Virus record (IMG/VR): IMGVR_UViG_3300012944_000024
Span: 34,408-98,407 of that record
Origin: a virus
DNA length: 64,000 nt
Strand: one strand, 5' to 3'
Under the pieces are notes generated by a model. That model saw nothing but the letters and a program-made list of their open reading frames with translations, was not told where the DNA came from and did no database searches. The position numbers and the translations under genes are program-made. Shown piece by piece: positions 946-57,473 of the stretch (its first letter is position 1; the number at the start of each line of letters is the position of its first letter).

Positions 946-2549
946 AGGTCCCAGCCCATCACGGCCACGTTCACGCTCCCCACGCCGCGCGACGACCCCG
1001 TGCTATCGACCTGCAGGCCGAATCCGAACAGGACTCCGGACGGCGGGATGGCAACCTTCACGCGGTAGCCGACCGCGAGCGCGTTGGCCGACACCGTCGG
1101 GTTTGGCAGGGAGTCGACGATCACCTCGGCGCGTGTGAGCACGTGCGTCAAGGTCGACTCGTACACGAGCACCGAGAGCTGCAGGAAGTCGATGAATCCC
1201 GACGGGACCGGTCCCGAGATGACCGTGAGGAGCAGGTGGAGCGCCTTGGCGTTCGCGGGGTAGTCGGTCACCGGCGCGTAGGTCCCGCTGGAGAACGAGC
1301 CCGACGTAGTGAGGGTCTTGGTGAAAAGACCCCCGGCGCCGGGGACGTTGGTCGTCTGCTTGACCCCATCGGTCACCACCGCGGCGACCGCCCCGCTGGT
1401 GGTCAGCCCGACCGCGATGCAGACGGCCTTCTGCGTCGCCCCCCCCAGCCCCGTCCCTGGGGGCAGGGCGAGAGGTGCGTTGGGGGCGCCCAAAAAGCTC
1501 GCAGGCGTCATCGAGAGCGACGGGATGCCGCGCGGGTTGCCCGGCGCGAGCAGGCCCCCTTGCAGCGTGTAGATCGCCCACCGAGGCAACCCAAACGGCT
1601 CGAGCAGATAGACGTACCCGACCCCCGCGCTGATCGCGCCGCTCTGGTTGGCCGCGAGATTGAGGTCGGTGGTGCCGCCGAGCTGGCCGCCCAGGCGGTA
1701 GAGGCACCCGCCCCCCGTCCCCAAAAAAACGAAGTTTGGATCGGTCGCGCTCGTGTCGACGTAGCCAGTGAGCAGCGCGTGGGTCGGCGAGCTCGCCGTG
1801 TCGATCTGGGTCCGATGGATCCGGGTGTGCGGATCGCGAGTGGCGAGGTTGAAGGGCGGGAAGAGCCGGTCGCCCACGAAGGGGCGCACATCCCAGAGGG
1901 TGCAGTTGGACGAGGTGATGGCGGTGAAGCCGGTGGGGGCGGAGATCACCGCGAGCGGCACCCACCCCACCGCCGTGCCGGGAAACCCGCCGCCCGACCC
2001 GCCCGCGCGCACGCGGTACTGCAGACGCCCGGAGATGACCTTGTTGACCGTCGAGGCGAGAAAGAGCCCCGTGACGGGATTGAAGATGTCGCGGTTGTCG
2101 GTCTCGAGGACCGAGAACCCACCCGCCACCCTCGCGCACTCGACCACGTAGATGATCGTCCCGCCCGACGTGTTGGCCGGGACGGCGAGGGCGCCGGCGA
2201 TGTTGATCCCCGGGTCGCGGATCACCTTGTACTGCGACTCGTCGGGGTTGATCGAAACATCAGGATCGTAGAGGCCGATCACCCCGGGATCGACCAGGAG
2301 GTTCAGGCTGCCGATCTGCGGGCGCACCACCAGCCCGTTGAAGACGGCCGCGCTCGGAGGGGAGGTGGCGATCGTCGACTGCAGGTCGAACGAGCTCGCC
2401 TGCGTGTCGTCGGTGCCGCAGTAGGTGTCGGCGAGCGCGCGGAGCAGCTCGTTCAGATCGAGCCCGCGGAATCGCTGCGCGCGGTTCTGGTCGTCCGAGA
2501 TCGCGCGCTCGCTCGCGTTGTAGACCAGTTCCTGCTCGCCATTGGCCAT
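942..2549 (-). CDS. Tail-distal structural or fibre-like protein
   Basis: A 535-residue protein and the last gene of the leftward tail block. The ATG at 2549 is preferred over a TTG nine bases upstream because AGGA lies about 11 bases before it. The N-terminus (ANGEQELVYNASERAISDDQ) resembles the start of phage tail proteins that dock to baseplates. The rest is rich in Gly, Thr, Ser, Val and aromatic residues, as expected for beta-structured fibre or spike proteins, and has no signal peptide. It follows the baseplate J-like genes, the usual place for fibres. Its stop overlaps that of the rightward lipoprotein gene in a shared CTAG. No enzymatic motif is visible. Confidence 0.6.
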   Translation of the reverse strand: MANGEQELVYNASERAISDDQNRAQRFRGLDLNELLRALADTYCGTDDTQASSFDLQSTIATSPPSAAVFNGLVVRPQIGSLNLLVDPGVIGLYDPDVSINPDESQYKVIRDPGINIAGALAVPANTSGGTIIYVVECARVAGGFSVLETDNRDIFNPVTGLFLASTVNKVISGRLQYRVRAGGSGGGFPGTAVGWVPLAVISAPTGFTAITSSNCTLWDVRPFVGDRLFPPFNLATRDPHTRIHRTQIDTASSPTHALLTGYVDTSATDPNFVFLGTGGGCLYRLGGQLGGTTDLNLAANQSGAISAGVGYVYLLEPFGLPRWAIYTLQGGLLAPGNPRGIPSLSMTPASFLGAPNAPLALPPGTGLGGATQKAVCIAVGLTTSGAVAAVVTDGVKQTTNVPGAGGLFTKTLTTSGSFSSGTYAPVTDYPANAKALHLLLTVISGPVPSGFIDFLQLSVLVYESTLTHVLTRAEVIVDSLPNPTVSANALAVGYRVKVAIPPSGVLFGFGLQVDSTGSSRGVGSVNVAVMGWDL

Positions 2550-2582
2550 GAGCGGCAATGTCCTACGAGTCGGGGTACCGCG

Positions 2583-4469
2583 TCACGGACACGGACCATC
2601 GTCCAGCAGCAATTCCCAGCCAACCCCACCCGCTCGGACCTTCTCGATCGCCGCGTAGACGGACTGGTAGGTGAGCGAAGAGAGGTAGGGGGAGCCGTCG
2701 AAGAAGTCGTCGTACGGCTCGGCGTCAAACGCGCCGGTCGGGTAGTCGTCAAAGGCGAAGCCGAACTCGCCGAACGAGAGGGTCGGGACGCCCACGTAGA
2801 AGTAGGCGCGCATCGTCAGGTAGGAGAAGAGGACGCGGAACCGGTTGGCATCCATCAGCCCCGCGGTCAGCCCGCTCGGCACCAGGACCGCCCCGCTCCT
2901 CAGCCCCACGATCGGATCCCCGATCGTGAACTTCCCGCGGATGCTGGCGAAGCCCGCGAAGCTCGTGAACGGGGCCGGGGGGCCGGGCACGAACGGGGCC
3001 GGGCCGACGGGATTGTAGACGACCGCGGTCGTCACGATCCCCGCCGCGCTGGTCTGCGAGACCTTCTCGCCGTCGAGAAAGACGCCGGTGAAGATGCCCG
3101 ATGCGACGACGAGGTCGTAGTCGAACGCGTCCCCCCCGGCCCCGTGCACGTCGACGGGCTTGTCGAAGAAGAAGCCCGGATAGCTGGGCTGCCCGGCTTC
3201 GCGAAAGCACCAGGGGATCCCGGGGATCGCGCGGTTGAGCGCGCGCCGGATCGCATTGGGCGAGACCACGTCGGCGAGCTGGGCGACGCGCACGCGGTAC
3301 TGGTCATCAGACTCGGCAGGCGCGCGGTCGATGTCCTTCTCGCGCCCGAGCGCGTCGAGCATCGCGGCCTTGCCGCCCGTAGGGCTCGCGGTGTTGGTCA
3401 CTCTGACCTGCCAGTCGATCACCCAATCCAGCACCCGCCACCCCGCCGTCTCGACCTCGGGGGTCAGGTCGAGGTTCTCGAGCTCCACGTCGATCGCAGC
3501 GGTCGCCCCGCTCACCATCCCGACCACGTCGGTCGCGGCGGCGCCGTTCTGCTTCTGAAACGTCAGCACGAGATCCGCGCCCGCCTGGAAGAGGCCGAGC
3601 AGCAACCCGTACCCCACCACGCTCGCCCCGTTCATCAACTCGAGCTTCTCGCCGATCTCGAACGTGCCGGTGAAGTCGCCCGCGAAGCTGCGCACCGACT
3701 GCTCGAGCGCGAGCTCGAGGGTCCCGCCCGTCTGCGGGGTGACGGAGAGGTTCGGGGGGAGCCACCCGATCGCCCGCGCCACCTTGCCCGTGTTGGTCCC
3801 GGCGGTGAAGGCGACATACTGCCCGACGTGCTGCGGGACGAACGCGTCGGCGACGTCGATCGCATCGAGAAAGACGCGAGCGAGCGAGGAGGTCGTCACC
3901 ACGCCGCCCGGGTAGTTCACCCCGCGCACCGTCGCCTCGACGTTGGTGAAGTTGGTGCCGGGCTGGTCGATCACGACCAGCGTGCCAGGCATGGGGTTGT
4001 TGTAGCCGGCGCCCGGACGCTCCGCGCGCGCCGCCACCGTGATGGGGCCCGTCTCGCCGGGCGCGAAGACCGCGTTGTCGGTCAGCACGTAGCGCCGGCC
4101 CGTCAGCACCCTCACCCCTTCCGGGTATCCCCAGTCGGTGATCTGCTCGTCCACCAGGGTCCCGGCGATCAAGACGAGCGGCAGGGAGAGGAGCCCCGAT
4201 CGGGTGAGGGTGAGGGTGACGGATGCGCGCGACGATCCGCTCGCGGGCTCGTCGGATTGCCCCGACCAGGGCAGCACGAACATCGCCTGGGTGGTGGTGT
4301 CGATCGCCTTGCTGACCCGCTCGCCCTGCGCCCACGCCTGCGTGTACGCCTCGAACCCGCCCCCCTCACCCGCCTGCTCGATCGGCTCGCGGAATCCCTT
4401 GTCGACCGCACGCTCCCAGACCTGCTGCAGCTCGGCCTTCGTGAGCGGCCCGACCTTGGGGGTGATCAC
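2583..4469 (-). CDS. Baseplate wedge protein, distantly J-like
   Basis: This 628-residue gene overlaps the J-like gene upstream by four bases (ATGA). A stretch near residues 390-420 (ESDDQYRVRVAQLADVVSPN) matches the pattern in baseplate J-family proteins where an acidic 'E-DD-YR-R' segment precedes a helix that packs in the wedge. The remainder is beta-rich with many Gly, Thr, Val and Pro residues. A paired J-like gene next to a canonical one fits a baseplate whose wedge uses two related subunits. The C-terminal 200 residues are unlike anything recognised and may carry a host-facing or fibre-binding domain. Confidence 0.55.
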   Translation of the reverse strand: MITPKVGPLTKAELQQVWERAVDKGFREPIEQAGEGGGFEAYTQAWAQGERVSKAIDTTTQAMFVLPWSGQSDEPASGSSRASVTLTLTRSGLLSLPLVLIAGTLVDEQITDWGYPEGVRVLTGRRYVLTDNAVFAPGETGPITVAARAERPGAGYNNPMPGTLVVIDQPGTNFTNVEATVRGVNYPGGVVTTSSLARVFLDAIDVADAFVPQHVGQYVAFTAGTNTGKVARAIGWLPPNLSVTPQTGGTLELALEQSVRSFAGDFTGTFEIGEKLELMNGASVVGYGLLLGLFQAGADLVLTFQKQNGAAATDVVGMVSGATAAIDVELENLDLTPEVETAGWRVLDWVIDWQVRVTNTASPTGGKAAMLDALGREKDIDRAPAESDDQYRVRVAQLADVVSPNAIRRALNRAIPGIPWCFREAGQPSYPGFFFDKPVDVHGAGGDAFDYDLVVASGIFTGVFLDGEKVSQTSAAGIVTTAVVYNPVGPAPFVPGPPAPFTSFAGFASIRGKFTIGDPIVGLRSGAVLVPSGLTAGLMDANRFRVLFSYLTMRAYFYVGVPTLSFGEFGFAFDDYPTGAFDAEPYDDFFDGSPYLSSLTYQSVYAAIEKVRAGGVGWELLLDDGPCP

Positions 4470-11275: not shown

Positions 11276-13243
11276 TCAGAATCCAAAGGTCTGTGAAAAG
11301 CGACTCGTGATCCGATTGGTCGCGGAGCGCGCGATGTCCTTCCGGAAGATAAGTGCGATCTTGTCCGGGTCGGCGTTCCGGAAGTCCTGGTGGATGTGCA
11401 TCGTGGTCGGCCCGAAGTTGATCGGCGGCAGCTTCGTCTCCGGTCCCTCCGCGCCGCCCGATGCGAGCCCGTGGAGCTTCTTGAGCGCGTCCTCCACGCT
11501 CCCCGTCGCCCCCGCGAGCGCGATGCGCAGGGCGTTGTTGGCGGAGAGGATCCGCCGCGCGCTCGCGTCGGCCTCCTTGGCGTTGACCTCGGTGGCGGTC
11601 TTGAACGCGCTGGTGATCTTCCCCATCCCGAGGCCCACCGCGATCCCCTGGGCGCCCATCACGTTCGCGCTCGCCGCCTCGAACCCGCCCATCGCGTTCG
11701 CGAGCTTGGCGTGGCCCTCGGCCTGCGCGTTGGCCTGGGCGAGCACCTTGCGGTAGGCGTCCTCGGTCATGTCGCCCGCCTCGACCGCCGCGGCGCCAGA
11801 GCGCTCGAGCGACTCGATGTAGTGCTGCATGTCCTGGTCGGTCGCCTCGACCTTCTGCGCGTCCTCGCCGATCTTGCGCACCACCGCGTTGATGTTGGCG
11901 AGCCGGTCGGCCGCCGCGTCGACGCTCTCGGTGAAGGGGTTCATGTGCTCGATGAGCCGCCCGAAGCTCATCCCGCTCTCCTGCTCGAGCTTGCCCATCT
12001 GATCGGACGCGAGCGTCCACGACCCCACCGCCGCGACCAGCGCGCCCGCCCCCAGCGCCGCCCCCGCCCCGCCCGTCCCCCCCAGCCCCCCCGCGCCCCG
12101 CGCCTTGCCCGCCGCCGCCCCCAGGCCCGGCAGCGCCCCCGCCCCCTGGGTCAGCATCCCCAGGGCCGGCTTGCCCACGTACTGCGCCGCCGCGAGCCCG
12201 AGGAGCAGATCGCGGTGCTCGGCGAGGAAGGAGACGGCCCCCTTGATCGCCCCCGCCCCGTCCTCGAGCGCCTTGCTGATCTCGTCCGCGTGGGTCTCGA
12301 GGTACTCGAATGCCTCCTTGATCTCGGCGCCGGCGATCTTCACCCACTCGCCAACCTTGTCCCCCATCGTGTGGGCGAGCCGCTCGATCTCCTCGCGGTG
12401 CTCGGCGAGGTAGACCTTCAGGTGCTCGAGCTGCGGGCCGACCGCGGCGATCATCGGGGCCCCCATCGTCTCGAAGAACGCCTCGCGCGTGCCGCTCAGC
12501 GAGGTGAGCAGCTGGTCGAACGAGAGCGGCGCGTCCTTCATGCGCTTGGCCATCCGGTCGACCGCGGTCTCGGCGAGCTTGAAGACGTCCTCTTGCTTGC
12601 CCCCCTGCATCATCGCGTTGAGCGCCTTGGCGACCTTCTTGGCCCCGCCCTCGACAACGCCCGTCTGCCGCATCAGCTGCACGAGCGCGTTCTTGGGCCT
12701 CACGATCCCCATCTCGAGGTCGCGCCACGCCGCGCTCATCGCCTCGAGCCCGCCGGGCAGGTTCTTCGACGCGACGGCCATCTTGTCGACCATCCCGGAG
12801 ACCTCCTCGCTCGAGCGGGTCGAGCGAGAGGCGATCATCTCGAACGCGTCGAGCATCGATTCCTTCGTGTTGCCTGTAGTGATCCCGAGCTGCTCGAAGT
12901 GCTCGTTCAACTTCTCGGCCTTCTCGGAGAGCTCGTCGAAGCTGCTCTCGCCCTTCTCGACCATGCTGATCGCCCCGGCGAGCTCCTTCTTCTGCTCGGC
13001 CAGGTGGGCGGCGGAGTGGAAGACCTCCTCACCGAACTCCTTGACCGTCTCGACCGCCCCCGAGAGCTGGAACCCGATCGCCACCGCGGCGGCCTGCTTG
13101 GCCATCCCCATCATCTCGTGGCCCACCTCGTGGACCTTCTCTCGCAGGCCCTCGAAGTTCTCCTTGAGCTTGTGCAGCGCCTCGTGCGCCTGATCGTCAA
13201 GAGTCAGCTTGGTGGAGACTTCCGCTTGCTCGTGTTCGCTCAT
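11276..13243 (-). CDS. Tail tape measure protein
   Basis: A 655-residue protein following the frameshifted tail chaperone, the standard position of the tape measure gene. It is almost entirely helical: residues 1-300 are rich in Lys, Glu and Leu with heptad-like spacing, and residues 340-410 are hydrophobic and Gly/Ala-rich. The length rule of about 1.5 angstrom per residue predicts a tail near 98 nm. The ATG at 13243 lies one base past the stop of the chaperone extension. No peptidase or lysozyme motif is visible in it. Confidence 0.85.
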   Translation of the reverse strand: MSEHEQAEVSTKLTLDDQAHEALHKLKENFEGLREKVHEVGHEMMGMAKQAAAVAIGFQLSGAVETVKEFGEEVFHSAAHLAEQKKELAGAISMVEKGESSFDELSEKAEKLNEHFEQLGITTGNTKESMLDAFEMIASRSTRSSEEVSGMVDKMAVASKNLPGGLEAMSAAWRDLEMGIVRPKNALVQLMRQTGVVEGGAKKVAKALNAMMQGGKQEDVFKLAETAVDRMAKRMKDAPLSFDQLLTSLSGTREAFFETMGAPMIAAVGPQLEHLKVYLAEHREEIERLAHTMGDKVGEWVKIAGAEIKEAFEYLETHADEISKALEDGAGAIKGAVSFLAEHRDLLLGLAAAQYVGKPALGMLTQGAGALPGLGAAAGKARGAGGLGGTGGAGAALGAGALVAAVGSWTLASDQMGKLEQESGMSFGRLIEHMNPFTESVDAAADRLANINAVVRKIGEDAQKVEATDQDMQHYIESLERSGAAAVEAGDMTEDAYRKVLAQANAQAEGHAKLANAMGGFEAASANVMGAQGIAVGLGMGKITSAFKTATEVNAKEADASARRILSANNALRIALAGATGSVEDALKKLHGLASGGAEGPETKLPPINFGPTTMHIHQDFRNADPDKIALIFRKDIARSATNRITSRFSQTFGF

Positions 13244-21884: not shown

Positions 21885-23294
21885 TCACATGGCGTGTTCC
21901 ACGACCAGGGCGCGTTTGAACCTCTCCGGCCCCGACGGGCCGGTCACGTCGCTCGGCACCGGGAAGCAGGTCGTGATGCTCCACGTGCTCGAGACGACCT
22001 GCTGCAGCCGGTCGAGCGGGGCGCGCAGGATCAGGCGGATGCGCTCGGTGAGGATCTTGATCCCGTTGTTGACAACGTCGAATGTCCCCGTCTTGCCCGT
22101 CAGGCCCGCCTCGGTCACGAAGTCGGACTCGTCGAGGTAGCGCTCGTAGAGCGCCCCCTTGCCGGTCACGATGACGCGGTCGATGTCGACGCCCTGGTCG
22201 TTCGTCGTCTCGGCGCCGATCTCGGCCGAGTACTGCGCGAAGTTCGGGCCCGTGAAGACCCTCGGTCCCCCGTTGCTCGCGTTGAACGGGTCGGGCGACT
22301 CGTTGTTCATGAAGAACATGATCCCCGAGATGTGGCCGATGAAGCCGCTCGAGTACATCGCCCCTTCGGGCAGCGCGGTGTTGAGGCGCTGCAGCACCGG
22401 GTCGGTGAAGATCTGCGCGTTCGCGAGCGGCGAGATGTGCGCGTGGTAGTAGCCGTCCTCGTGGGGCATCACGTTGCCGCGCCGAAGCAGCGCGACCGCG
22501 TTGATGCAGTCCTGCAGGGTGACGGTGTCGCCCGAGCCGATCGCGTCGATCGTCGCCCCCCCGCCGCTGCGCACGATGCGCGGCGCGTAGGTGCTCTTGA
22601 GGCTCGTGCGGGCCGCGAACACCGCCCCCACCGCCGCGGCGAGCGTCAGGGTGCCGGGGCCGAACGGATCGGTCGGGTCGTCGGGAACGAACCCGGTGAC
22701 CTGCACCGTGATGGTGCCGGCGACACCGACGACGCCGAGCGTCGCGGAGAGGGGCGAGGCCGGCGAGACCGGCTTGGGGGCCACGTTGACGCCAGGCACG
22801 ATCACGTCGGTGAACCCGTTGAGGCTCGCGACGTGCACCTGCGTGTCGGTCGTGAGGGTCGCGACGTTGATGACCGTGTTGCCCGACAGGTACGCCAGGA
22901 AGAGTGAGTTTCGGGCGACGCGGTTGATGCTCTGCCCCGCCCCGATGCCCAGCTGCTGGATGTTGCGCATCAGCAGCGAGGCCGCCGCCGTCACGCTCGT
23001 CGGCATGTTCGTGTCGACCGTGTCGGAGTACTGCTGGATCACGCTCGTCCACTGCTCGTAGATCACCGTCGAGGGCTGAGGGTCCTGGCCCGGCACGAGC
23101 GGCTTGGTCTTGGGGGTGAGGAGACCGGGGCGCGTCTGGTTCAGCGTCTCGCCCGTGTTGGCCTGGACCTGCTCGGCGAGCGCCTCGGCGCGGTACGCGA
23201 AGTTGGGGACGAGCCCATCGTGGAAGGCGCGCTCGAGCGCGCCTTGCTGGTGGAGCTCCTGCATGTACGGGGGGACGAGGAGGATGACGGACAT
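21885..23294 (-). CDS. Major capsid protein, probable
   Basis: A 469-residue protein starting at ATG 23294, with GAAAG upstream. It follows the scaffold gene and has the size of a major capsid protein. Notable features are the N-terminal helical arm (residues 1-60), 'RVARNSLFLAYLSG', a Gly/Thr/Val-rich insertion around 165-220 and a C-terminal 'YHAHISPLANAQIFTD...GFIGHISGIMFFMNNES' block reminiscent of N4-gp56-type capsids. It is isolated between two hairpin terminators, consistent with very high, separately controlled expression. An alternative is that the 264-residue protein at 24554-25348 is the shell protein and this one a second head protein. Confidence 0.7.
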   Translation of the reverse strand: MSVILLVPPYMQELHQQGALERAFHDGLVPNFAYRAEALAEQVQANTGETLNQTRPGLLTPKTKPLVPGQDPQPSTVIYEQWTSVIQQYSDTVDTNMPTSVTAAASLLMRNIQQLGIGAGQSINRVARNSLFLAYLSGNTVINVATLTTDTQVHVASLNGFTDVIVPGVNVAPKPVSPASPLSATLGVVGVAGTITVQVTGFVPDDPTDPFGPGTLTLAAAVGAVFAARTSLKSTYAPRIVRSGGGATIDAIGSGDTVTLQDCINAVALLRRGNVMPHEDGYYHAHISPLANAQIFTDPVLQRLNTALPEGAMYSSGFIGHISGIMFFMNNESPDPFNASNGGPRVFTGPNFAQYSAEIGAETTNDQGVDIDRVIVTGKGALYERYLDESDFVTEAGLTGKTGTFDVVNNGIKILTERIRLILRAPLDRLQQVVSSTWSITTCFPVPSDVTGPSGPERFKRALVVEHAM

Positions 23295-23485
23295 GGGAAT
23301 CTTTCGTGGGGAGGGTGGAGGATCGCGCCCGCACGCCTTCCCTGCCGATCCGACGCCCTCGTCCCCGATCCGCCTGTTGACCGCCGGCGTGCGCGTTGGG
23401 GATTCTTCGTCGCTCTCGCAGGGCCTGGCCGCGGCGGCCTGAAACCTGATCTCCAGGCGAGCGTCCCCGATCGCCGATCGCGAGC

Positions 23486-23527
23486 GCAAGAAAAACGAAG
23501 GGCCGGGACCCTCGCGGATCCCGGCCC
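23486..23527 (-). terminator. Intrinsic terminator between scaffold and capsid genes
   Basis: Perfect nine-base arms (GGGCCGGGA at 23500-23508 and its complement at 23519-23527) form a hairpin. On the minus strand it is followed by TTCGTTTTTC, a classic T-run. It separates the scaffold transcript from the capsid gene, whose leader (23295-23485) must then hold a promoter that I could not place. A 14-base palindrome, GTGGGTGCACCCAC, lies at 23534-23547 just before it. Confidence 0.75.
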
Positions 23528-23585
23528 CGGTGCGTGGGTGCACCCACCTGGCAGGAGCCTATCCCCGCCACTCTGGCTGGTTAGT

Positions 23586-27238: not shown

Positions 27239-27418
27239 CTAAAGCCAGCCTGGGAGAGCCCTTCGGATCAACCCTTCGAAGACATCGTCCTGCCCGCCGC
27301 TTGCCTCATCGGTGGCTTTCCAGAGCCGGTCAAATTCCACCTTGGTCCACCGACCCTCGGCGATCAGTCGGTCGGCCTCCTCTGCGATCGCGTTGAGTGC
27401 GTCTGCGTCGAACCCCAT
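27239..27418 (-). CDS. Small acidic protein after the MuF-peptidase gene
   Basis: A 59-residue acidic helical protein (MGFDADALNAIAEEADRLIA and 'GLIRRALPGWL' at the end). Its ATG overlaps the stop of the metallopeptidase gene (ATGA). Being small, acidic and translationally coupled, it could be an inhibitor or chaperone of that peptidase, but this is inferred from gene order alone. Confidence 0.6.
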   Translation of the reverse strand: MGFDADALNAIAEEADRLIAEGRWTKVEFDRLWKATDEASGGQDDVFEGLIRRALPGWL

Positions 27419-29121
27419 CAACGTTTGCCTATGCCGAGCTTCTTGAAGACGTCCTGGACCATCTGATGCCCAATGGGATCGAACGAGGCAAGCAGGTTGG
27501 GCTTGCGCATGTGCGCGGCGAACGACTCGGCGAAGTACTCGTCCTTGTGAACGCTGCCGTACCGGGTCAGGTGCGATTTGTCTGACTTCGCTTTCTGGAA
27601 CGCGGTCTGCACGATCGCGTTCACCTCCGACCCTCCCGATAGGTGCACGTGGTGCCCGATCTCGTGCGCGAGCGTCAGGGCGATCGCCTCCTCGGCCGAC
27701 TTGCCGAGCGAACTGATGCTCCACGACACCCCAGGCTCGTACGGGTTTGCATCGACTACGCGGTGCGCACGAATGTCGATCCGCGTCTTGAGCACTCGTC
27801 TCTCACCCTCAGCGTTGGTCGTGTAGTGCTGCGTGTGGAGCCCATTGGGACGTTTGCCTCGCTGCTTTATCTCCGGGACCGCGACGAGCTCGTCGATCGG
27901 ATTCGTCTCGAGATGGTCGAGCACACCGCGGTGCGGAAGGGCGGTGTCGAAGACGGTCGAGACGTCCACGTCTCCGCCCCCGCGCGGAAGGCGCTTCTGC
28001 GTGAAATTCTTGAAGTGAACTCCGGGGAGCAGGTGGTCAGGGCGTTCCTCGAGTGCAGCCGGCACCACCGCGGCTGCCGCCTTCGGTTCCTCCTTGCCCT
28101 TGCCGAACTGCTCGAGCGGGATGGTCGTCATCTTCGGGCGCGGCGGGACCGCGCCCTTGCGCCCGTCGTACTTCCAGCGCGCCGCCACCTCCCCGTCCGT
28201 CTTCCACGCCAGCGCGGGAGGGATGGGCCAAGAGATCCGGTGCGGGACAACAACACCGCGATCGTTCGGTCGGTCGGGAGGATGCTGCATGAGACCGTAC
28301 CAGCTCTGAAACGGCTCCTGCGGGCGCCGGATCTGGCCGTGCGTCGCGTAGCTGTCGGCGGCAGTGCGGTCGTCGAAGTGCGCGGACAGGATCTTCACCA
28401 TGTCGCCGAGCTCGTCGTCGGCCGCGCGCGTAACCTCGTAGCCTGCGCGGTTCATAGCCGACATCGTTTCCGAACGTACAATTCTCTCAGCCCAAAATGC
28501 GGGGGACGCCTGGAGGAAGGGAGACTGCTCGGTCAGCTCGTCACGAACCTCCCCCCAGGGCTTGCGCGTCAGGAATCCCTTCTGCAGCACGCGCTCGAAG
28601 TGCCCGATCGTCTCCGCCCCGTACCGCTCCAGCACCCCCGGCTTCGCCGGATGCGCCTGCTCGTCCGCCCCCTCGATCGCCTCCCCGCTCGACGCGAGCC
28701 GGCGCAGGATGGACGCCTTCACCCCGCTCTGCGCCTGGTCGACGATCCCCGCCTCCTCGAGCTGCAGGGGGGCGGCGACGCCGCGGAAGTCCCGCTCGGC
28801 CGCCCGCAGGTACTCGAGCGTCCCGCGCGCCCCCGCCTCCGCCGCCTCCGCGCCCGTCTCCACCACCGTCTTGGCGATCCCGCGCTGCGCCACCTTGGTC
28901 GCCTCGCGCACCTGCGCGAGCGTGGCGCGCATCTGCGTAATCGTGAAGGTCGAGTCGTCGAGCCCGCGCAGGTGGACCGCTTCGAGGATGCGCCGCTCGA
29001 GATCCGCCGCCGCGGCCGCGAGCACCTTGCGCACGCGCTCGATCCCGACCTTCTGGGTCAGCTCGAGCGCCTGGCGGTGGTCCTCGGCGAGCGCCTCGCG
29101 CGGGGTCAGGTTGGCCGCCAT
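27418..29121 (-). CDS. Mu F-like head morphogenesis protein fused to a zinc metallopeptidase
   Basis: A 567-residue protein. Residues 1-170 are helical. Residues about 175-300 match the SPP1 gp7/Mu F head-morphogenesis domain ('WAERIVRSETMSAMNRAGYE', then a 'HPPDRPNDRG' segment), which acts at the portal vertex. Residues about 380-567 are a peptidase-like domain with HEIGHH at 486-491 and a downstream glutamate in 'YFAESFAAHM' near 532, the zinc-ligand arrangement of gluzincins. Mu F-like proteins often carry C-terminal effector domains delivered with DNA. The peptidase could be a prohead maturation enzyme or an injected effector. The next gene overlaps by ATGA. Confidence 0.8.
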   Translation of the reverse strand: MAANLTPREALAEDHRQALELTQKVGIERVRKVLAAAAADLERRILEAVHLRGLDDSTFTITQMRATLAQVREATKVAQRGIAKTVVETGAEAAEAGARGTLEYLRAAERDFRGVAAPLQLEEAGIVDQAQSGVKASILRRLASSGEAIEGADEQAHPAKPGVLERYGAETIGHFERVLQKGFLTRKPWGEVRDELTEQSPFLQASPAFWAERIVRSETMSAMNRAGYEVTRAADDELGDMVKILSAHFDDRTAADSYATHGQIRRPQEPFQSWYGLMQHPPDRPNDRGVVVPHRISWPIPPALAWKTDGEVAARWKYDGRKGAVPPRPKMTTIPLEQFGKGKEEPKAAAAVVPAALEERPDHLLPGVHFKNFTQKRLPRGGGDVDVSTVFDTALPHRGVLDHLETNPIDELVAVPEIKQRGKRPNGLHTQHYTTNAEGERRVLKTRIDIRAHRVVDANPYEPGVSWSISSLGKSAEEAIALTLAHEIGHHVHLSGGSEVNAIVQTAFQKAKSDKSHLTRYGSVHKDEYFAESFAAHMRKPNLLASFDPIGHQMVQDVFKKLGIGKR

Positions 29122-29486: not shown

Positions 29487-31379
29487 CTACGTGCCCGGCC
29501 CGCTATCGCTCGCCGTCTTGCCGTCCTCCTCGCCCCCACCCCCGAAGGGGGGCTTGCTCGCACCGAACTTCGGCGGCGCAGCGCCGGGCGGCTTCGGAGC
29601 CCCCGGGGTACCCGGCTTGCCCCCCGCCGACGCAGCAGCCGCGTCGGCGGCGTCCTTGTTGGCCTGCTGCTGCTTGGCGTCGTCGTCGGAGCCGTCCTTC
29701 TGCACTCGCTCCCACTCGTCGCCCCCCTCGATCCCGTAGAGCAGCGAGGCCTGCTCGACGCTCGTCTGCTGCGAGAGGACCGCCTTGCCCCCGTTGGCGG
29801 TGGTCAGGGCGGTGATCCCCTGGGACTGGTCCATCGGGGTCGGGGGGAAGTAGTTGGGCCAGTCGAGCTCGACGTCGCCGCCCTGCCCGACCGCCTGGTC
29901 GACGCGCGTGACCGTCTGAACCGGCTTGCCCTGCTCGTCGACAGCAGGCTTCTCCAGCCCCGTCTCCGGATCGGTCTCCTTCTGGGCCGTCTTGACGATC
30001 TTCTGCGGCAGGTTGACGAAGAGCTGGATCGTCTTGGGGACGTCGATCGTCTTGTCCGGGTCGTCGGGGTCGGGCTGCTTGACGTAGATCGTCACCGGCG
30101 CGCCCGTCTTGAGCTGCGCGACCTCGATCATCTGCTCGAGGATGCGCTGCAGCACGCCGCCGTACTGGGCGCGGAGGATCTCACACCGCCCCAGCATGGG
30201 CTGGAAGATCGTCTTGAGCGCCACGGAGCTCACGCCCTGCGCGGCGATCTCGCTGGGGTCGGGCACCACGCACTGCGCGACCTCGAGCGCGCTGCGGCGC
30301 TTCTCGTTGAAGAGCTTCACCCCCGCGTCGAGCGACTGGCCCGTGAGTTCGAGGTACTCCGCCGCGCCCGCCTCGCCGACGTTGAGGGTGTGGTCGCTCC
30401 CGGTCCCGATGGCGCCGAAGATCTCCGCGTCCGTCTTGAGCACCAGGGTGGGGTCGAGGTTCAAGACCGCGCCCTTGGAGATGACGCTGAGCAGGATGTC
30501 GAGCACGTCGAAGTTCTCGTAGAGCCCCTCGTAGTCGGGCAGCCCGTCAATCCCCTCGGCGGGGATGTTCTGCACCCAGTTGCAGTGGCAGAAGCCGTCC
30601 TCGTGGGTGATCGATTTGCTCGGATCGGGGATCCACGCGGGCTCGACGTTCGCGCGATAGAGCTGCGGGACGAAGAGGACGTCGTCGTCCTCGGTCCAGT
30701 CGCGCCGGTGCCAGTACCAGTTGCGGACAAACCGGCGCGCCACCCCGTCCCACTCGTCCTGCGGGTAGAGGTAGACCTCCGAGATGTGCCGCGCGACCAG
30801 CTCCTCACGATCGTCCCACTCGTGCACGAAGAGATACTTGCCGTTGTGGACCTCGACGCGCGGGCGCCCCTTGCGGTCGTAGCACCAGCTGATCCCCACC
30901 GTCCCCACGCTGCCGCCGAGGTTGCGCGCCCGGATCATCTTCGTCTCGAGGTTGCTCGCCTTGATCAGCGCGGCGGCGAAAGCCTGCGTGTCCCCGTCGC
31001 CCTCGACCCGGATGGACGGGAAGCGCTGCGACCCGAAGACCATGTTGGTGAAGGAGCCGACGATCACCTTCGCGAGTCGGTAGGGAGCGGAGGGGCGGCG
31101 CGCCCGCAAGGGCACCATGAAGGGGGCAACCTCCTGGGTGATGAGGGGCTGGGAGACGAGCGCGCCCGGCCCGCTGATCTGCAAGACGCGACCGTCGAAG
31201 TCGTAGTTCTTGCCGTCGTGCTGGCAGCAGGTCTCGTAGCTTTGCCGCCGGTCGAGCTCCTGGTAGCGCGGGCTCGAGAGCAGCGAGGAGGCTCGAAACC
31301 CCGTCGGCATCCCCGTGGATTGCAGCCGCTTGCCGAACGCGGCTCCGTTGAACGGCTGCGAGGTCTCGCCGGGGGGCAT
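29487..31379 (-). CDS. Portal protein
   Basis: A 630-residue protein with the length and order expected for a portal: after terminase and before MuF, scaffold and capsid. The body contains the mixed alpha/beta clip and wing regions ('YLFVHEWDDREELVARHISE', 'FDVLDILLSVISKGAVLNLD'), a long helix ('QPMLGRCEILRAQYGGVLQR') and a disordered Ala/Gly/Pro-rich C-terminal tail of about 70 residues. The portal forms the dodecameric DNA entry ring. Confidence 0.8.
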   Translation of the reverse strand: MPPGETSQPFNGAAFGKRLQSTGMPTGFRASSLLSSPRYQELDRRQSYETCCQHDGKNYDFDGRVLQISGPGALVSQPLITQEVAPFMVPLRARRPSAPYRLAKVIVGSFTNMVFGSQRFPSIRVEGDGDTQAFAAALIKASNLETKMIRARNLGGSVGTVGISWCYDRKGRPRVEVHNGKYLFVHEWDDREELVARHISEVYLYPQDEWDGVARRFVRNWYWHRRDWTEDDDVLFVPQLYRANVEPAWIPDPSKSITHEDGFCHCNWVQNIPAEGIDGLPDYEGLYENFDVLDILLSVISKGAVLNLDPTLVLKTDAEIFGAIGTGSDHTLNVGEAGAAEYLELTGQSLDAGVKLFNEKRRSALEVAQCVVPDPSEIAAQGVSSVALKTIFQPMLGRCEILRAQYGGVLQRILEQMIEVAQLKTGAPVTIYVKQPDPDDPDKTIDVPKTIQLFVNLPQKIVKTAQKETDPETGLEKPAVDEQGKPVQTVTRVDQAVGQGGDVELDWPNYFPPTPMDQSQGITALTTANGGKAVLSQQTSVEQASLLYGIEGGDEWERVQKDGSDDDAKQQQANKDAADAAAASAGGKPGTPGAPKPPGAAPPKFGASKPPFGGGGEEDGKTASDSGPGT

Positions 31380-34240: not shown

Positions 34241-34638
34241 GGGACAGGCACCGCGTAGATGGCGAGGATCTTGAGCGACCCCGACGTCGCCCCGGCGACG
34301 GTCGCGAGGAAGAACGACCAGACGACCGACGTGTCGTTGCCGCCGCCGGCCACCAGGGCGAGCGTGTCGAGGTAGTCGAGCCACGCCTCCATCAGCACCG
34401 CCCAGGTGCTGCTGCCGCCCGATTGCTTCACGCCCGGCGAGATGGTGCTGCTGGGCGGATCGTCGATGACGGCGAACGTGACGGTCGAGGCCGAGGTGAT
34501 GATCCCCTTGCCGTTGACGGAGAAGACGGGGATGGTCGACGTCGTGCCAAACGTGACGGGTGCGGCCTGCGCGAGCAGCTGCGCCGGCCAGCAGAGGACC
34601 AGTAGGGCGGTGGTGAGCGCGAGCAGGTTCTTCTTCAT
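34237..34638 (-). CDS. Chimeric exported mini-fibre protein
   Basis: A 133-residue protein. It opens with MKKNLLALTTALLVLCWPAQ, almost the same signal peptide as the next gene. Residues 28-50 ('FGTTSTIPVFSVNGKGIITS') are one tail-fibre repeat. Residues about 55-133 ('VIDDPPSS', 'TWAVLMEAWLDYLD', 'IYAVPVP') match the upstream 264-residue gene in shortened form. It is therefore a fusion of parts of its two neighbours. It overlaps both by ATGA. A 27-base identical repeat (34232-34258 and 34630-34656) spans both start regions. Confidence 0.75.
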   Translation of the reverse strand: MKKNLLALTTALLVLCWPAQLLAQAAPVTFGTTSTIPVFSVNGKGIITSASTVTFAVIDDPPSSTISPGVKQSGGSSTWAVLMEAWLDYLDTLALVAGGGNDTSVVWSFFLATVAGATSGSLKILAIYAVPVP

Positions 34639-52840: not shown

Positions 52841-52984
52841 CTACCATGCCGATTCGTGGCTCTCGCCGGGCGTGGCGTCGAAGAGCCAAAGCACCCCGTA
52901 GCCGGCCCAGAGGGCGAAGGCGACGAGCAGCAAGGACAGCCACGGGAATCGCGTCTCACGGCGGATCTGGCGGGCAGTCTTCAT
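52841..52984 (-). CDS. 47-residue membrane protein after TerL
   Basis: A 47-residue protein, ATG 52984 overlapping the terminase stop (ATGA). It reads MKTARQIRRETRFPWLSLLL, then 'VAFALWAGYGVLWLF', a membrane helix, and ends DATPGESHESAW. The topology is that of a small holin or anchor. A T7 slippery run near the end of TerL could in principle fuse it to the terminase in the -1 frame. Confidence 0.55.
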   Translation of the reverse strand: MKTARQIRRETRFPWLSLLLVAFALWAGYGVLWLFDATPGESHESAW

Positions 52985-55659
52985 CGCACCAGCATCGAGG
53001 CCGTCGCGCGCCTCGGCCCCTTCCCACCGGGTAGGGGGGTTTTGCGGATCGCCCCGAACCGGCGCGCCGTCTCGAGAGCAAAAAAACTACTCATCAATAA
53101 ATCTCCTGTGTGCGCGCTCGGCACGTAGTGCAGGCACTGGTCGATCCACTTCTTGAGCGGCCCCTCCGCGGGTCGCCCCTCGTTGGGGATCGCCCACGCC
53201 CCGTTCGCCATCTCCCCGAAGATGCTCGGCACGCCGTTCTGGATGCTGTTCTTGCTCGCGTCGGTGCGGTGCTCCTTGAGGATCAAGCTCTTGTTGCTCG
53301 TGACCATCAGGCGCCTCACCCCCTCCTGGGCGCCGTTGTTCTCGAACCCAAACGGCAGGTGGTCGAAGCGCTCGTCGATCCACTCGAGCTTCTTCGCGAG
53401 CTCGTCGGTCCCCCACTTGCCGCTCTCGAGCCACATGGGCACGCGGATCTGCATCTTGCCGTTGTCGTCGGGGAAGACGCCCAGTACGAAGATGGCCGTC
53501 TCGTCGGCCGCCGCGCTCTGGGAGAAGGCGAGATCCACCCCCCCGTAGATCCAGTTCTTGAGCCCCCCGCGCGGCGCGCCGTTGTACTTGAGAAACTCCT
53601 CCGCGCTCGAGGCGATGCGCTTGAAACCCATCTTGCGGCCGAGCGCGAGCGCCTTGTCGACGTACTCCTGCTTGCAGAGGGCGGTGGAGTCGTCGCGGCA
53701 GACGTTGTTGTAGTTTCTCTCGAACTCGACCGGATGCATCTCGCCGCGTCGCTCCTCGAGCAGCTCCCTCGGCCACCGCTCCGGCCAGAGGGTGCGCTCG
53801 CCCTCGGGCAGGTGGTCGTGGGCGACGAGCCGGTAGGTCGCCAAGGGGTTGGAGGGGTCGAGATCGTCGTCGGGGCGGATGAGATCCGAGTCGAAGCGCG
53901 GGCAGTTGCGAAGGAGGATGGTGCCATTGGAGCGCATGATCATCCCGGGCCAGCCCGGCCCCCCCTCGGCCTGGCTCATCATCAGGCGGTGGGTGGTGTC
54001 GTCCTGGTGGAGCGCCACGCACGTCACCACCACCTTGCCGCGCCGGCTGTCCATGCGCGTGAAGAGGGTGGAGGAGAGCCATCGATAGAGCGCCTCGCGC
54101 GCTTCGGGGGTGTGGGTGTTCTCTTCGTTGGACAGGTCGTCGACGTGGCAGAAGCCCCACCGGCTCCCGCGGATCTGCTTGGAATCTTGCCCGCGCGCCA
54201 CCAGGCTCGGGTCCTTGGAGCCGGGGGGGCGGTCGACGATGAGCTCCGTCGTCGTCCACGAGTCGCCCATGCGCGAGGACCGCCGCAGGGTGGGGAAGAC
54301 GAACTGCAGCTCCGGCGAGCTCTCGATGTACTGCCGGATCATCGAGAAGGGTTTCTTCGCCTGGCCCTCCGAGGCGCTCACCACGGCCGCCTTGAGCAGG
54401 GGGTCGTGGCCGATCTTCCAGAGCGTGTAGCCGGCGAGCGAGAACGTGTTGTGCGTGACGGTGAAGTCGCCGAGCAGGTAGCGCCCGTCCCCGCCGATCG
54501 TGACCCCGAAAAACTCATCGACCCCGATCGGCTCGACTTTGAAGTGCGTCCAGAGTGCGCGGCGCACCTTCGTCGCCGGCGTGACGCGCTTGCGCGCCAG
54601 CCGGATGGGGATGTCGGCGAACGCGTCGCCGGCGATCGTGAGGCGCCGGTAGGTACCGTACTCTGGATGCTCGAACGACCCCTCGCAGACGCGCAGGCCG
54701 AGCGACCTGGCGATGAAGGCGATGTCTCGCGCCCAGTCGGCGTTCTTTTGGGTGATCCATATGCACCCATCCTTCGCGCACCCGTCCGCGTCGATGAAGC
54801 CCGCGAGAAACTCGGCACGATCCGCCCACGGGGCCGTCTTGGCCCACGTCATCGTCAGCGAGTCGCCCTCGACGGCCTCGCGGATCTTCTCCATCAGCGG
54901 GTTGGGCCTGCGCCCCTGCCCCTTGCCCGCTCCCTTCCCGCCGGGCCGCGAGAGCCCGAACGACTGCTCGTCGAGCGGTACGACGTGCAGCCCGTGCGCG
55001 TGGGCGATCTCCATGCACATCGACCGAACCTCGGGGTCGATGCTCGTCAGGCGCACCCCGTGCCGGACCGAGTGGAGTCCGTCGCCGAACCAGACGCCGA
55101 GGAAGTAGGGGTCGACCGGCAGGGGTCGTTCGCCGTGGAATCGCCGCACCGACGCGCGCACCAGACTCGAGGTCGAGCGCTTCCACTTCGACCAGCCGAG
55201 CCAGTCTCGGATCGTGACGTCGTCGATCCTCCCCGTCTCAGAGTCGACGATCGTCAGGAGGTGGTCCTCGTTGCAAACGAACGGGTTACCCCCTCGCTTC
55301 GGCGTGACCCGGTAGAGCATCCCACGCCCCCCGCCGGTCGTGTTGAGCACCCGCGTGGGCGCCCGATAGCCCATGATCCAGTCGCCCTTGCGGACGTCCT
55401 CGACCGCACGCGTCGTCCCGTCCGCCATCAGGATCGGCGTCCCCCGCCCGTGGCACTTCGTGTGCTCGACGGGGATCATGAGCACGCTGTTGCGGTGCGC
55501 CTCGACGAACTCGAAGATCAGCCGCTGCAGCGGGATGACCCGGATGGGCGCGGCCGTCCCTTCCTCGCGCAAGACGAACTCGAAGAACTTCGCGACGTCC
55601 TCGCGCGCCTCCTCCGCCTCGAGCAAGAGCTCGGCGATCACCTCCTCGTCGTCGCTCAT
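52981..55659 (-). CDS. Large terminase subunit containing an intein
   Basis: An 892-residue precursor. The N-terminal extein (1-68) ends 'VLMIPVEHTK' and the C-terminal extein resumes with 'TFSLAGYTLWKIGHD', so the insertion splits Walker A (HTK^T). The extein also holds Walker B ('WGFCHVDDLSNEEN') and the nuclease aspartates ('YGGVDLAFSQSAAADETA' and 'HTGDLLMSSFFALE'). After splicing, a normal 556-residue TerL would translocate DNA into the prohead and cut it. It is coupled by ATGA to the genes on either side. The intein occupies residues 69-404. Confidence 0.9.
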   Translation of the reverse strand: MSDDEEVIAELLLEAEEAREDVAKFFEFVLREEGTAAPIRVIPLQRLIFEFVEAHRNSVLMIPVEHTKCHGRGTPILMADGTTRAVEDVRKGDWIMGYRAPTRVLNTTGGGRGMLYRVTPKRGGNPFVCNEDHLLTIVDSETGRIDDVTIRDWLGWSKWKRSTSSLVRASVRRFHGERPLPVDPYFLGVWFGDGLHSVRHGVRLTSIDPEVRSMCMEIAHAHGLHVVPLDEQSFGLSRPGGKGAGKGQGRRPNPLMEKIREAVEGDSLTMTWAKTAPWADRAEFLAGFIDADGCAKDGCIWITQKNADWARDIAFIARSLGLRVCEGSFEHPEYGTYRRLTIAGDAFADIPIRLARKRVTPATKVRRALWTHFKVEPIGVDEFFGVTIGGDGRYLLGDFTVTHNTFSLAGYTLWKIGHDPLLKAAVVSASEGQAKKPFSMIRQYIESSPELQFVFPTLRRSSRMGDSWTTTELIVDRPPGSKDPSLVARGQDSKQIRGSRWGFCHVDDLSNEENTHTPEAREALYRWLSSTLFTRMDSRRGKVVVTCVALHQDDTTHRLMMSQAEGGPGWPGMIMRSNGTILLRNCPRFDSDLIRPDDDLDPSNPLATYRLVAHDHLPEGERTLWPERWPRELLEERRGEMHPVEFERNYNNVCRDDSTALCKQEYVDKALALGRKMGFKRIASSAEEFLKYNGAPRGGLKNWIYGGVDLAFSQSAAADETAIFVLGVFPDDNGKMQIRVPMWLESGKWGTDELAKKLEWIDERFDHLPFGFENNGAQEGVRRLMVTSNKSLILKEHRTDASKNSIQNGVPSIFGEMANGAWAIPNEGRPAEGPLKKWIDQCLHYVPSAHTGDLLMSSFFALETARRFGAIRKTPLPGGKGPRRATASMLVR
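54448..55455 (-). mobile_element. LAGLIDADG intein within TerL
   Basis: The 336-residue element starts at Cys69 (CHGRGTPILMADGTTRAVED, the A block) and ends FTVTHN, with the penultimate His and final Asn needed for splicing. The +1 extein residue is Thr. The N3 region is 'NPFVCNEDHLLTIV'. Two LAGLIDADG-like motifs ('YFLGVWFGDG' near 187-194 and 'LAGFIDADG' near 285-293) mark a homing endonuclease. It interrupts the ATP-binding loop, so unspliced TerL should be inactive. Confidence 0.9.
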
Positions 55660-56553: not shown

Positions 56554-57198
56554 TCACTCACCGGCCATCTCCACCACCTGCGATGCCGCGGCGAGCCGCT
56601 TGCGCTCCCTCGCGCGCTCGAGCAGCCCCTGCGTCCGCTCGGGCGTCAGCGTCGAGAGGACCGCCATCAGCGATTCCTTGAGCGCGTGCTCGACGATCAC
56701 TTTTTGCGGGGCCCGTGTGCCCTCGATGTCTGCGAGCAGCTCCTCACACCGCACGTACTGGGGAGGGGGGAGGAGCTCCTCCACCACTTCCTTCTCGACC
56801 ATCGTGCCCGTGTTTGGATCGCGTACGCGACGCTTGACCGTCTTGTAGCGCGGGGTCTTGAACTTCTCGATCGCGTCGTGCAGACGCGCGATCGTCACCG
56901 CCCGCGCGTAGGGCTTGCGCGCGTCCGCCTCCGTCTTGAGCGACTCGTGCACCTTGGCGATGAGGCTGCGCGTCGCGATCGCCCCGATCCCCAGCTCCCC
57001 GCGCGCGATGCGCACGATGAGCGCGTCGGTGTAGCCGCGCGTCAATAGACGGAAGACCTCGGCGAGCCGGTTCTCGTCCTCGGTCGGGGTGAGGTCGATC
57101 TGCGCGATCACGGCGCGCTCCTCGGGCGTCACGGGGCGGGTGATCCTGGCGGGGACGCCTACTTTCGGAGGGAACGAGCCGCTGCGTCGGCGAGCCAT
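56554..57198 (-). CDS. Putative small terminase subunit
   Basis: A 214-residue protein from ATG 57198, with GAGG six bases upstream. The N-terminus is basic, followed by helices that could recognise DNA ('VFRLLTRGYTDALIVRIARG', 'IATRSLIAKVHESLKTEADA') and a charged C-terminal helix ('LTPERTQGLLERARERKRLA'), as in TerS proteins. It lies two genes upstream of TerL, the normal place. The assignment rests on order, size and helical design. Confidence 0.5.
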   Translation of the reverse strand: MARRRSGSFPPKVGVPARITRPVTPEERAVIAQIDLTPTEDENRLAEVFRLLTRGYTDALIVRIARGELGIGAIATRSLIAKVHESLKTEADARKPYARAVTIARLHDAIEKFKTPRYKTVKRRVRDPNTGTMVEKEVVEELLPPPQYVRCEELLADIEGTRAPQKVIVEHALKESLMAVLSTLTPERTQGLLERARERKRLAAASQVVEMAGE

Positions 57199-57206
57199 TG
57201 GATGCC

Positions 57207-57473
57207 TCAACGTAGGCCATCTGGATGGGTCGTTGTCAAACCGCCGGAGCAACTGGCGGCGAGCGGGATGAGACACTCGGCGAAGGCCAGCGGGGTGCGT
57301 GACGCTTCTCGCTTGCCAAGGGTGGGCCTTACGCGGTCAAACCATCCACACTGATGTGTGCCCGGTTCGCGGGCGTCGCGTGCCTTGTCCCAGCAGTCGG
57401 CCAGCAGCTTCTGGTACGGCCCGCGCGGGTCGACGTAGAGCGCGCTTACGTCGGTGCGTAGAGGCGATCTCAT
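57207..57473 (-). CDS. Small protein of the packaging operon
   Basis: An 88-residue protein, ATG 57473, whose stop lies eight bases before the small-terminase ATG. It starts MRSPLRTDVSALYVDPRGPY, and 'LYVDPRGPYQKLLADCWD' resembles the opening of a common phage protein family that continues differently. The C-terminal half departs from that pattern, so a frameshift or divergence is possible. Confidence 0.5.
   Translation of the reverse strand: MRSPLRTDVSALYVDPRGPYQKLLADCWDKARDAREPGTHQCGWFDRVRPTLGKREASRTPLAFAECLIPLAASCSGGLTTTHPDGLR

Follow-up and report, generated by a model that had tools for sequence, protein, structure and literature searches.

A LAGLIDADG intein between the Walker A lysine and threonine of a phage large terminase, and the coding motifs occupied by its relatives

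In a 64,000-nucleotide stretch of viral DNA (hereafter the window; positions 34,408 to 98,407 of IMG/VR record IMGVR_UViG_3300012944_000024), the gene for a phage large terminase subunit (TerL) is interrupted in frame by a PI-SceI-like class 1 intein that lies between the lysine and the threonine of the Walker A motif and that very probably (we put it at roughly 0.92) splices to yield a 556-residue TerL and a 336-residue endonuclease. Inteins at this K^T point (^ marks the insertion) have already been described in TerL proteins, as TerL1-a (Kelley 2016; PMC5050341), and the window carries the same site in what is probably a different group of terminases. In the mechanism we propose, the gene would make an 892-residue precursor in which Cys1 of the intein would begin an N-to-S shift, the threonine at +1 would accept the N-extein and Asn336 would cyclise with the help of His335, so that the flanks would join into a TerL with a restored P-loop and the endonuclease would be set free. 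Since the ATP-binding loop would be broken before splicing, packaging would have to wait for it, and the freed endonuclease may cleave intein-free terminase alleles at this site, which would spread the insert.

The gene is one uninterrupted minus-strand frame of 892 codons with no stop (Table 1), in which the insert runs for 336 codons from Cys69 to Asn404, opening with CHGRGTPILM and closing with GDFTVTHN before a threonine; the flanks read IPVEHTK^ and ^TFSLAGY. An earlier note on this DNA had placed an intein at exactly these positions, beginning at Cys69, ending in HN and splitting HTK^T of the ATP-binding loop, and had predicted products of 556 and 336 residues; the frame bears this out to the base, the lysine aligns with that of Walker A, and joining the flanks computationally returns both lengths. 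The insert has a G+C content of 68.6%, the remainder of the gene one of 66.5%, and at third positions the value is 91% in the insert against 93% and 98.5% on its two sides, so by composition the insert does not look foreign. The source of this intein-bearing TerL is a single assembled metagenome virus record, 98,407 bases long, without an isolate; across it this intein is the sole match to Pfam families PF05203 and PF14528. Dependence on a single metagenome record is the one point in favour of reading the intein as dead and its terminase gene as broken, or the whole as an assembly artefact; the 892 codons without a stop, the presence of every splicing residue and the same arrangement on an independent contig (L025, discussed below) make either very improbable, and we proceed with a gene that encodes a splicing-competent intein as the preferred reading.

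Table 1. Positions of the TerL gene, its intein and their motifs in the window
Feature	Position	Strand	Basis
TerL gene with intein (892-residue precursor; 556 residues after predicted splicing)	52981..55659	-	phrog_38; termin_lrg_T7 (latter below cut-off)
Intein Cys1-Asn336 (precursor 69-404), LAGLIDADG type	54448..55455	-	family and fold matches; absent from L265 and L266
N-terminal half of Walker A, PVEHTK (residues 63-68), Lys68 being the -1 residue	55456..55473	-	alignment with intein-free TerLs; profile to 4bij
Thr405, putative +1 splicing nucleophile and Walker A Thr/Ser	54445..54447	-	frame; orthologue alignment
Splicing block A, CHGRGTPILMADG	55417..55455	-	Cys1 invariant in 12/12 and 43/43 aligned inteins
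Splicing block B with Asn62 and His65	55249..55290	-	N62 and H65 invariant in 43/43
First LAGLIDADG motif YFLGVWFGDG, putative catalytic Asp125	55078..55107	-	aligns with PI-SceI Asp218; invariant in 43/43
Second LAGLIDADG motif EFLAGFIDADG, Asp222 and Asp224	54781..54813	-	Asp224 corresponds to PI-SceI Asp326; D222 invariant, D224 in at least 90%
Splicing block F, DEFFGVTIGGDGRYLL	54472..54519	-	PI-SceI alignment; alignment of 12 inteins
Splicing block G, GDFTVTHN	54448..54471	-	H335 and N336 invariant in 43/43
TerL Walker B region WGFCHVDD	54136..54159	-	D171 and D172 (spliced numbering) invariant in TerL alignment
Putative TerL nuclease-domain motif GVDLAFS	53521..53541	-	D373 invariant in TerL alignment

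The insert matches the Pfam families Hom_end_hint (4.9e-11) and Hom_end (4.6e-5) above their cut-offs and LAGLIDADG_3 just under its own. Its best sequence match in the PDB is PI-SceI, the yeast VMA1 intein (1lwt, 1vde; 1.3e-11), and Asp125 and Asp224 align with PI-SceI chain positions Asp218 and Asp326, which we take to be the catalytic residues of that enzyme. An AlphaFold model of the intein (mean pLDDT 93.2) matches PI-SceI over its whole length (Foldseek 2.4e-24; VIA-align Z 31.0, 325 residues, rms 3.0 Å) and the splicing domain of the Prp8 intein (Z 23.1, 1.3 Å over 140 residues). The architecture held in common with PI-SceI is a Hint domain with a two-motif LAGLIDADG endonuclease, whereas the lengths (336 against 454 residues, the match skipping parts of PI-SceI), the host proteins and most of the sequence (19–24% identity) differ. 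The sequence marks of a class 1 intein are present, namely Cys1, the H335-N336 C-terminus and Thr at +1, as are the Hint fold with its block B histidine and two LAGLIDADG motifs bearing putative acidic catalytic residues. By established intein chemistry, class 1 splicing proceeds through these conserved residues, and C1, N62, H65, D125, D222, H335 and N336 occur in every row of an alignment of 43 inteins (that of the window and 42 loci hand-picked from IMG/VR and GTDB scan loci). The Pfam families and PI-SceI, by both sequence and structure, thus agree with the first description of the insert as a LAGLIDADG intein, and the accompanying remark that Thr is permitted at +1 holds as well, since Thr follows HN and class 1 inteins take Cys, Ser or Thr there.

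Sequence comparisons support the identification of the host protein as a phage TerL with the intein after the Walker A lysine. The joined flanks match phrog_38 (8.4e-42) and the NCBIfam model termin_lrg_T7 (8.4e-15, below that model's own cut-off), and against 50,697 phage records they give 10 matches at 1e-5, all at less than 30% identity over about a quarter of the length. No Pfam terminase family, TerL_ATPase included, matches the window C-extein, and TerL_ATPase scores 13.6 bits, against a cut-off of 23.7, on the intein-free orthologue L265. When the joined TerL is aligned with three Zobellviridae records (two of those 10 matches and one other), the Walker A, Walker B and nuclease motifs follow in order, with P63, K68-T69, D171-D172 and D373 conserved; for the last of these, a nuclease role is established in TerL proteins. 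A profile of 20 relatives, with L265 first and the window sequence left out, finds, in the PDB, the maturase B chain 4bij (4.4e-15) and the terminase chain 8dgc; through this profile the TerL lysine falls on the lysine of RGIGKS in 4bij, which places the insertion point directly after the Walker A lysine. The AlphaFold model of L265 was poor (mean pLDDT 54) and was kept out of the fold search, so the P-loop reading rests on alignment. The motif departs from the canonical GK[ST], for PVEHTKT keeps only the lysine and the Thr/Ser, and the three Zobellviridae terminases read PRDHGKS or PRDHQKS at this position. Deviant Walker A motifs occur in true terminases, so the departure weakens the word canonical and leaves the TerL assignment unaffected. 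Elsewhere in the window, weak matches to portal, head morphogenesis, major head and tape measure proteins (29487–31379, 27418–29121, 21885–23543 and 11276–13243, all on the minus strand) lie over 21 kb away from the terminase gene. The open reading frame just upstream of it (56554–57276), the sole upstream neighbour searched, gave no match.

Single-sequence scans of the viral collection found no close relatives of the intein or the C-extein, and only alignments reached relatives. Scanning IMG/VR with an alignment of the window and L025 terminases gave 44 pattern matches, three of which encode a relative: L025's own contig, L265 and L266. The intein is present at the same insertion point in the window (PVEHTK^TFSL) and in L025 (PPGFSK^SFLA) and absent from L265 (PVSFSKTFCA) and L266 (PVGTSKTLDT), where the motif is uninterrupted; it is likewise absent from the Zobellviridae TerLs. 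Identity to the window TerL is 38.4% for L025, 38.6% for L265 and 38.4% for L266, with 44–46% among those three, and by BLAST the window and L025 are 48.7% identical in the intein and 36.9% in the extein. The comparison with intein-free terminases that the earlier note had proposed as a check therefore comes out as it anticipated: L265 and L266 lack exactly this block (PVSFSK/TFC and PVGTSK/TLD), which shows that the block can be removed and that the junction is exact. A normal extra domain of the terminase would also stand in frame, and nothing else favours one; the empty sites, with their exact junction, refute it, and the insert matches inteins by family and fold, so that we give this explanation practically no credence and retain an intein as the identity of the insert.

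The suggestion that the homing site is conserved across many terminases fares less well. The position is common, but only Pro and Lys of the motif, plus Ser/Thr at +1, are invariant among the four orthologues, and the flanking DNA (20+20 nucleotides) is identical at 15 of 40 bases between the two intein-bearing alleles and at 19–22 of 40 in the other five pairs. We rejected co-conversion or a common homing site for the window and L025 because they agree at fewer of these bases than the other pairs do. Recent homing, which the higher identity of the two inteins (about 50%) than of their exteins (36–38%) might indicate, was also set aside: of 729 same-register pairs, drawn from inteins selected for their similarity, 684 differ in the same direction. 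A careful tree built from 16 TerLs (the window, L025, L265, L266, L256, three phage records and 8 of 80 scan loci) has the window as its first branch, followed by L266 and then by the pair of L025 and L265 (92/89 and 90/86), which makes the presence of the intein patchy; this pattern may reflect a single ancient gain followed by two clean losses, or more than one entry.

The target preference of the intein lineage was read from its flanks. Among the 16 inteins that group with that of the window (see below), the junction core CNGG....GGNAAG^A is common to most rows, and the head-maturation protease sites CCNGGNGANGGNAAG^A fit it. The window junction keeps mainly AAG^A, most of GG..GG..AAG^A being absent, which renders present homing activity unsure: either the endonuclease may have changed its target taste, or the target may have drifted while masked by the insert. 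This departure from the core of the relatives' sites, together with the low agreement in flanking bases with the closest carrier (15 of 40), would fit an intein that splices and no longer moves, in which the need for TerL maintains splicing and an endonuclease with no usable target is inherited vertically. Against such immobility, both LAGLIDADG motifs retain their aspartates and conservation is good throughout the endonuclease part, as would be unexpected after long disuse, and presence in the TerL tree is patchy. We regard the immobile state as rather unlikely, and favour an intein that splices and whose endonuclease would still act on empty alleles.

Among known systems, the nearest by site is the mycobacteriophage TerL1-a, one of five intein sites in terminase_1 proteins; it separates the invariant lysine of Walker A from the Thr and counts as a classic P-loop site (Kelley 2016; PMC5050341). 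As there, the window intein separates the Walker A Lys and Thr of a TerL and splicing would be needed for an active site, a likeness of insertion site (PMC5050341). The TerL1-a hosts belong to terminase_1 (PF03354; PMC5050341); the window TerL matches the phrog_38 and T7-type models, has a non-canonical Walker A and probably belongs to another group. That paper also reports reporter splicing of five terminase inteins, among which TerL1-a is not named, cleavage of an intein-free partner gene by both of two TerL inteins tested, and the residence of most inteins in ATP-binding proteins (PMC5050341). A conditional switch, in which a host or environmental cue slows splicing and so makes packaging late, was proposed for TerL in that study (PMC5050341), and P-loop inteins of RadA and DnaB are reported to disrupt function or splice conditionally (PMC6195587); all five TerL inteins tested there nevertheless spliced readily (PMC5050341), and we hold such regulation to be improbable for the window beside constitutive removal of the intein. 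An intein likewise lies in the large terminase gene of Campylobacter phage vB_CcoM-IBB_35, which, unlike that of the window, also has an intron (PMC3322345). The predicted viral structure set, too, includes TerL proteins with such inteins. The open-licence literature, to the extent it was accessible, held no description of this intein, of the three-residue shift set out below or of the head-maturation protease site.

With a threshold of E 1e-3, related inteins were found in 270 phage records; in 242 the match covers 80% or more of the length, and the best full-length match is 34.6% identical. Sixteen phage loci were read at the junction: nine have GK^T in helicase-like proteins (L002, L003, L010–L015 and L017), one crAss-like portal has its insert at GGK^S (L018), one protein labelled terminase at GRG^SGKT (L016), and five gave partial matches only (L019–L023). 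The inteins of DEAD/ResIII-type helicases in Klebsiella phage JD001 and Vibrio phage 1.009.O resemble that of the window along their whole length (33–35%), in the K^T point and in the ending GDFTVTHN^T; unlike the window TerL, these helicases have a canonical GK^T.

Scans with an intein alignment took the best 80 loci from IMG/VR and the best 80 from GTDB genomes, which is no census. The resulting set of 141 inteins (80 from IMG/VR, 49 from GTDB, 11 phage loci and the window) was selected by intein similarity, not by flank; 31 GTDB loci were left out by eye, being mostly near-repeats with one truncated. Among the matches listed, 89 lie at K^[STC], 49 at G^[STC]GK and 3 elsewhere, so that 138 of 141 occupy two points three residues apart across many unrelated proteins; after sequences more than 80% alike are dropped, the counts among these matches are 76, 44 and 3 of 123. 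One of the three exceptions, L057, was probably read in the wrong phase; corrected, it would fall at K^T. Host proteins were typed by PHROG/Pfam for 40 C-exteins and otherwise by BLAST clustering with these, and among the matches listed they include SF2 helicases, DnaB, UvrD, Cdc6, FtsK-like and T2SSE-like proteins, thymidine kinase, deoxynucleoside kinase, primase, a head-maturation protease (phrog_207) and terminases of at least four PHROG groups. The C-exteins of L037, L043, L048, L068, L091 and L186 matched nothing in PHROG or Pfam, and they and their near copies were labelled '?' alike.

In a quick tree of 122 inteins, which has no outgroup rooting and many weak deep forks, the window and L025 inteins are sisters (99) within a set of 16 (95) that also holds eight from helicases, five from proteases and one from a deoxynucleoside kinase; after L025, the nearest inteins among the matches listed are thus those of helicases and the head-maturation protease, not of other terminases. 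The terminase label changes 7 times on this tree, at least four of them on well-supported branches. In a second tree, built after trimming four residues from the start of each intein and one from its end, the register of insertion changes 8 times against 32–43 in shuffles and the host label 19 times against 42–46 (30 draws each); these two labels have different numbers of states and are not directly comparable. Residue 2 of the intein also differs between registers among the matches listed, being Leu in 74, His in 12, Phe in 2 and Gly in 1 at K^x, and His in 46, Phe in 2 and Leu in 1 at G^xGK; the window is itself an exception, with K^T and His. That residue 2 follows register is suggestive from these sequences; as statistical proof we rejected it, the 3 independent pairs on supported branches (7 over all branches) giving a sign-test median p of 0.25.

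Tentatively, and with somewhat less than even confidence, we propose that this lineage follows a P-loop-like coding motif and not a gene. It would enter at two points with Ser or Thr at +1, G^[ST]GK^[ST], in unrelated hosts that include a protease (HPGDGK^S) and a portal protein (GREGGK^S), slide between them within a gene, keep residue 2 in step (Leu at K^, His at G^) and have entered terminases at least four times. To our knowledge, neither the head-maturation protease nor the portal is recognised as a P-loop protein. This motif-tracking pattern is of more interest than the insert itself: with two registers, many unrelated hosts and a three-residue shift inside one terminase family, it becomes testable whether DNA sequence, the +1 residue or selection for regulation recruits inteins to P-loops. 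Orthologous TerLs with and without the insert and with diverged Walker A motifs make it possible, in turn, to test how far a target can change before a homing endonuclease no longer tolerates it. The window itself contributes a single well-documented example, backed by an exact comparison with empty sites, in which an intein would have to leave before ATP-driven packaging.

Several individual loci deserve mention. Within one terminase group, the intein lies at GIG^SGKS in L047, L066 and L102 (positions in these include 2501–3538, 759–1796 and 484–1521) and at GIGSGK^S in L093, L094, L095 and L099, of which L093 and L094 are identical; in this group the exteins are 58–83% alike and the inteins, of one lineage, 64–75% alike, and the joined protein reads GIGSGKS either way. 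In the head-maturation protease loci L027, L028, L029, L031, L032, L033 and L036, an intein of the same family stands at HPGDGK^S/T, beside a possibly catalytic histidine; phrog_207 was matched by L027 and L036, the two searched. An empty orthologue, L274, reads HPGDGKS, and the codons of the protease site resemble those of a P-loop. The crAss-like phage cr118_1 carries a related intein (L018:601-1662) at GREGGK^SATF in a gene annotated as portal protein. The DnaB gene at L204 has, in its C-extein, a second Intein_splicing (PF14890) stretch downstream of the first intein. Finally, gp48 of Klebsiella phage JD001 (L003/L004) is called 'terminase large subunit' in RefSeq NC_020204 and helicase in GenBank, and its sequence reads as a helicase.
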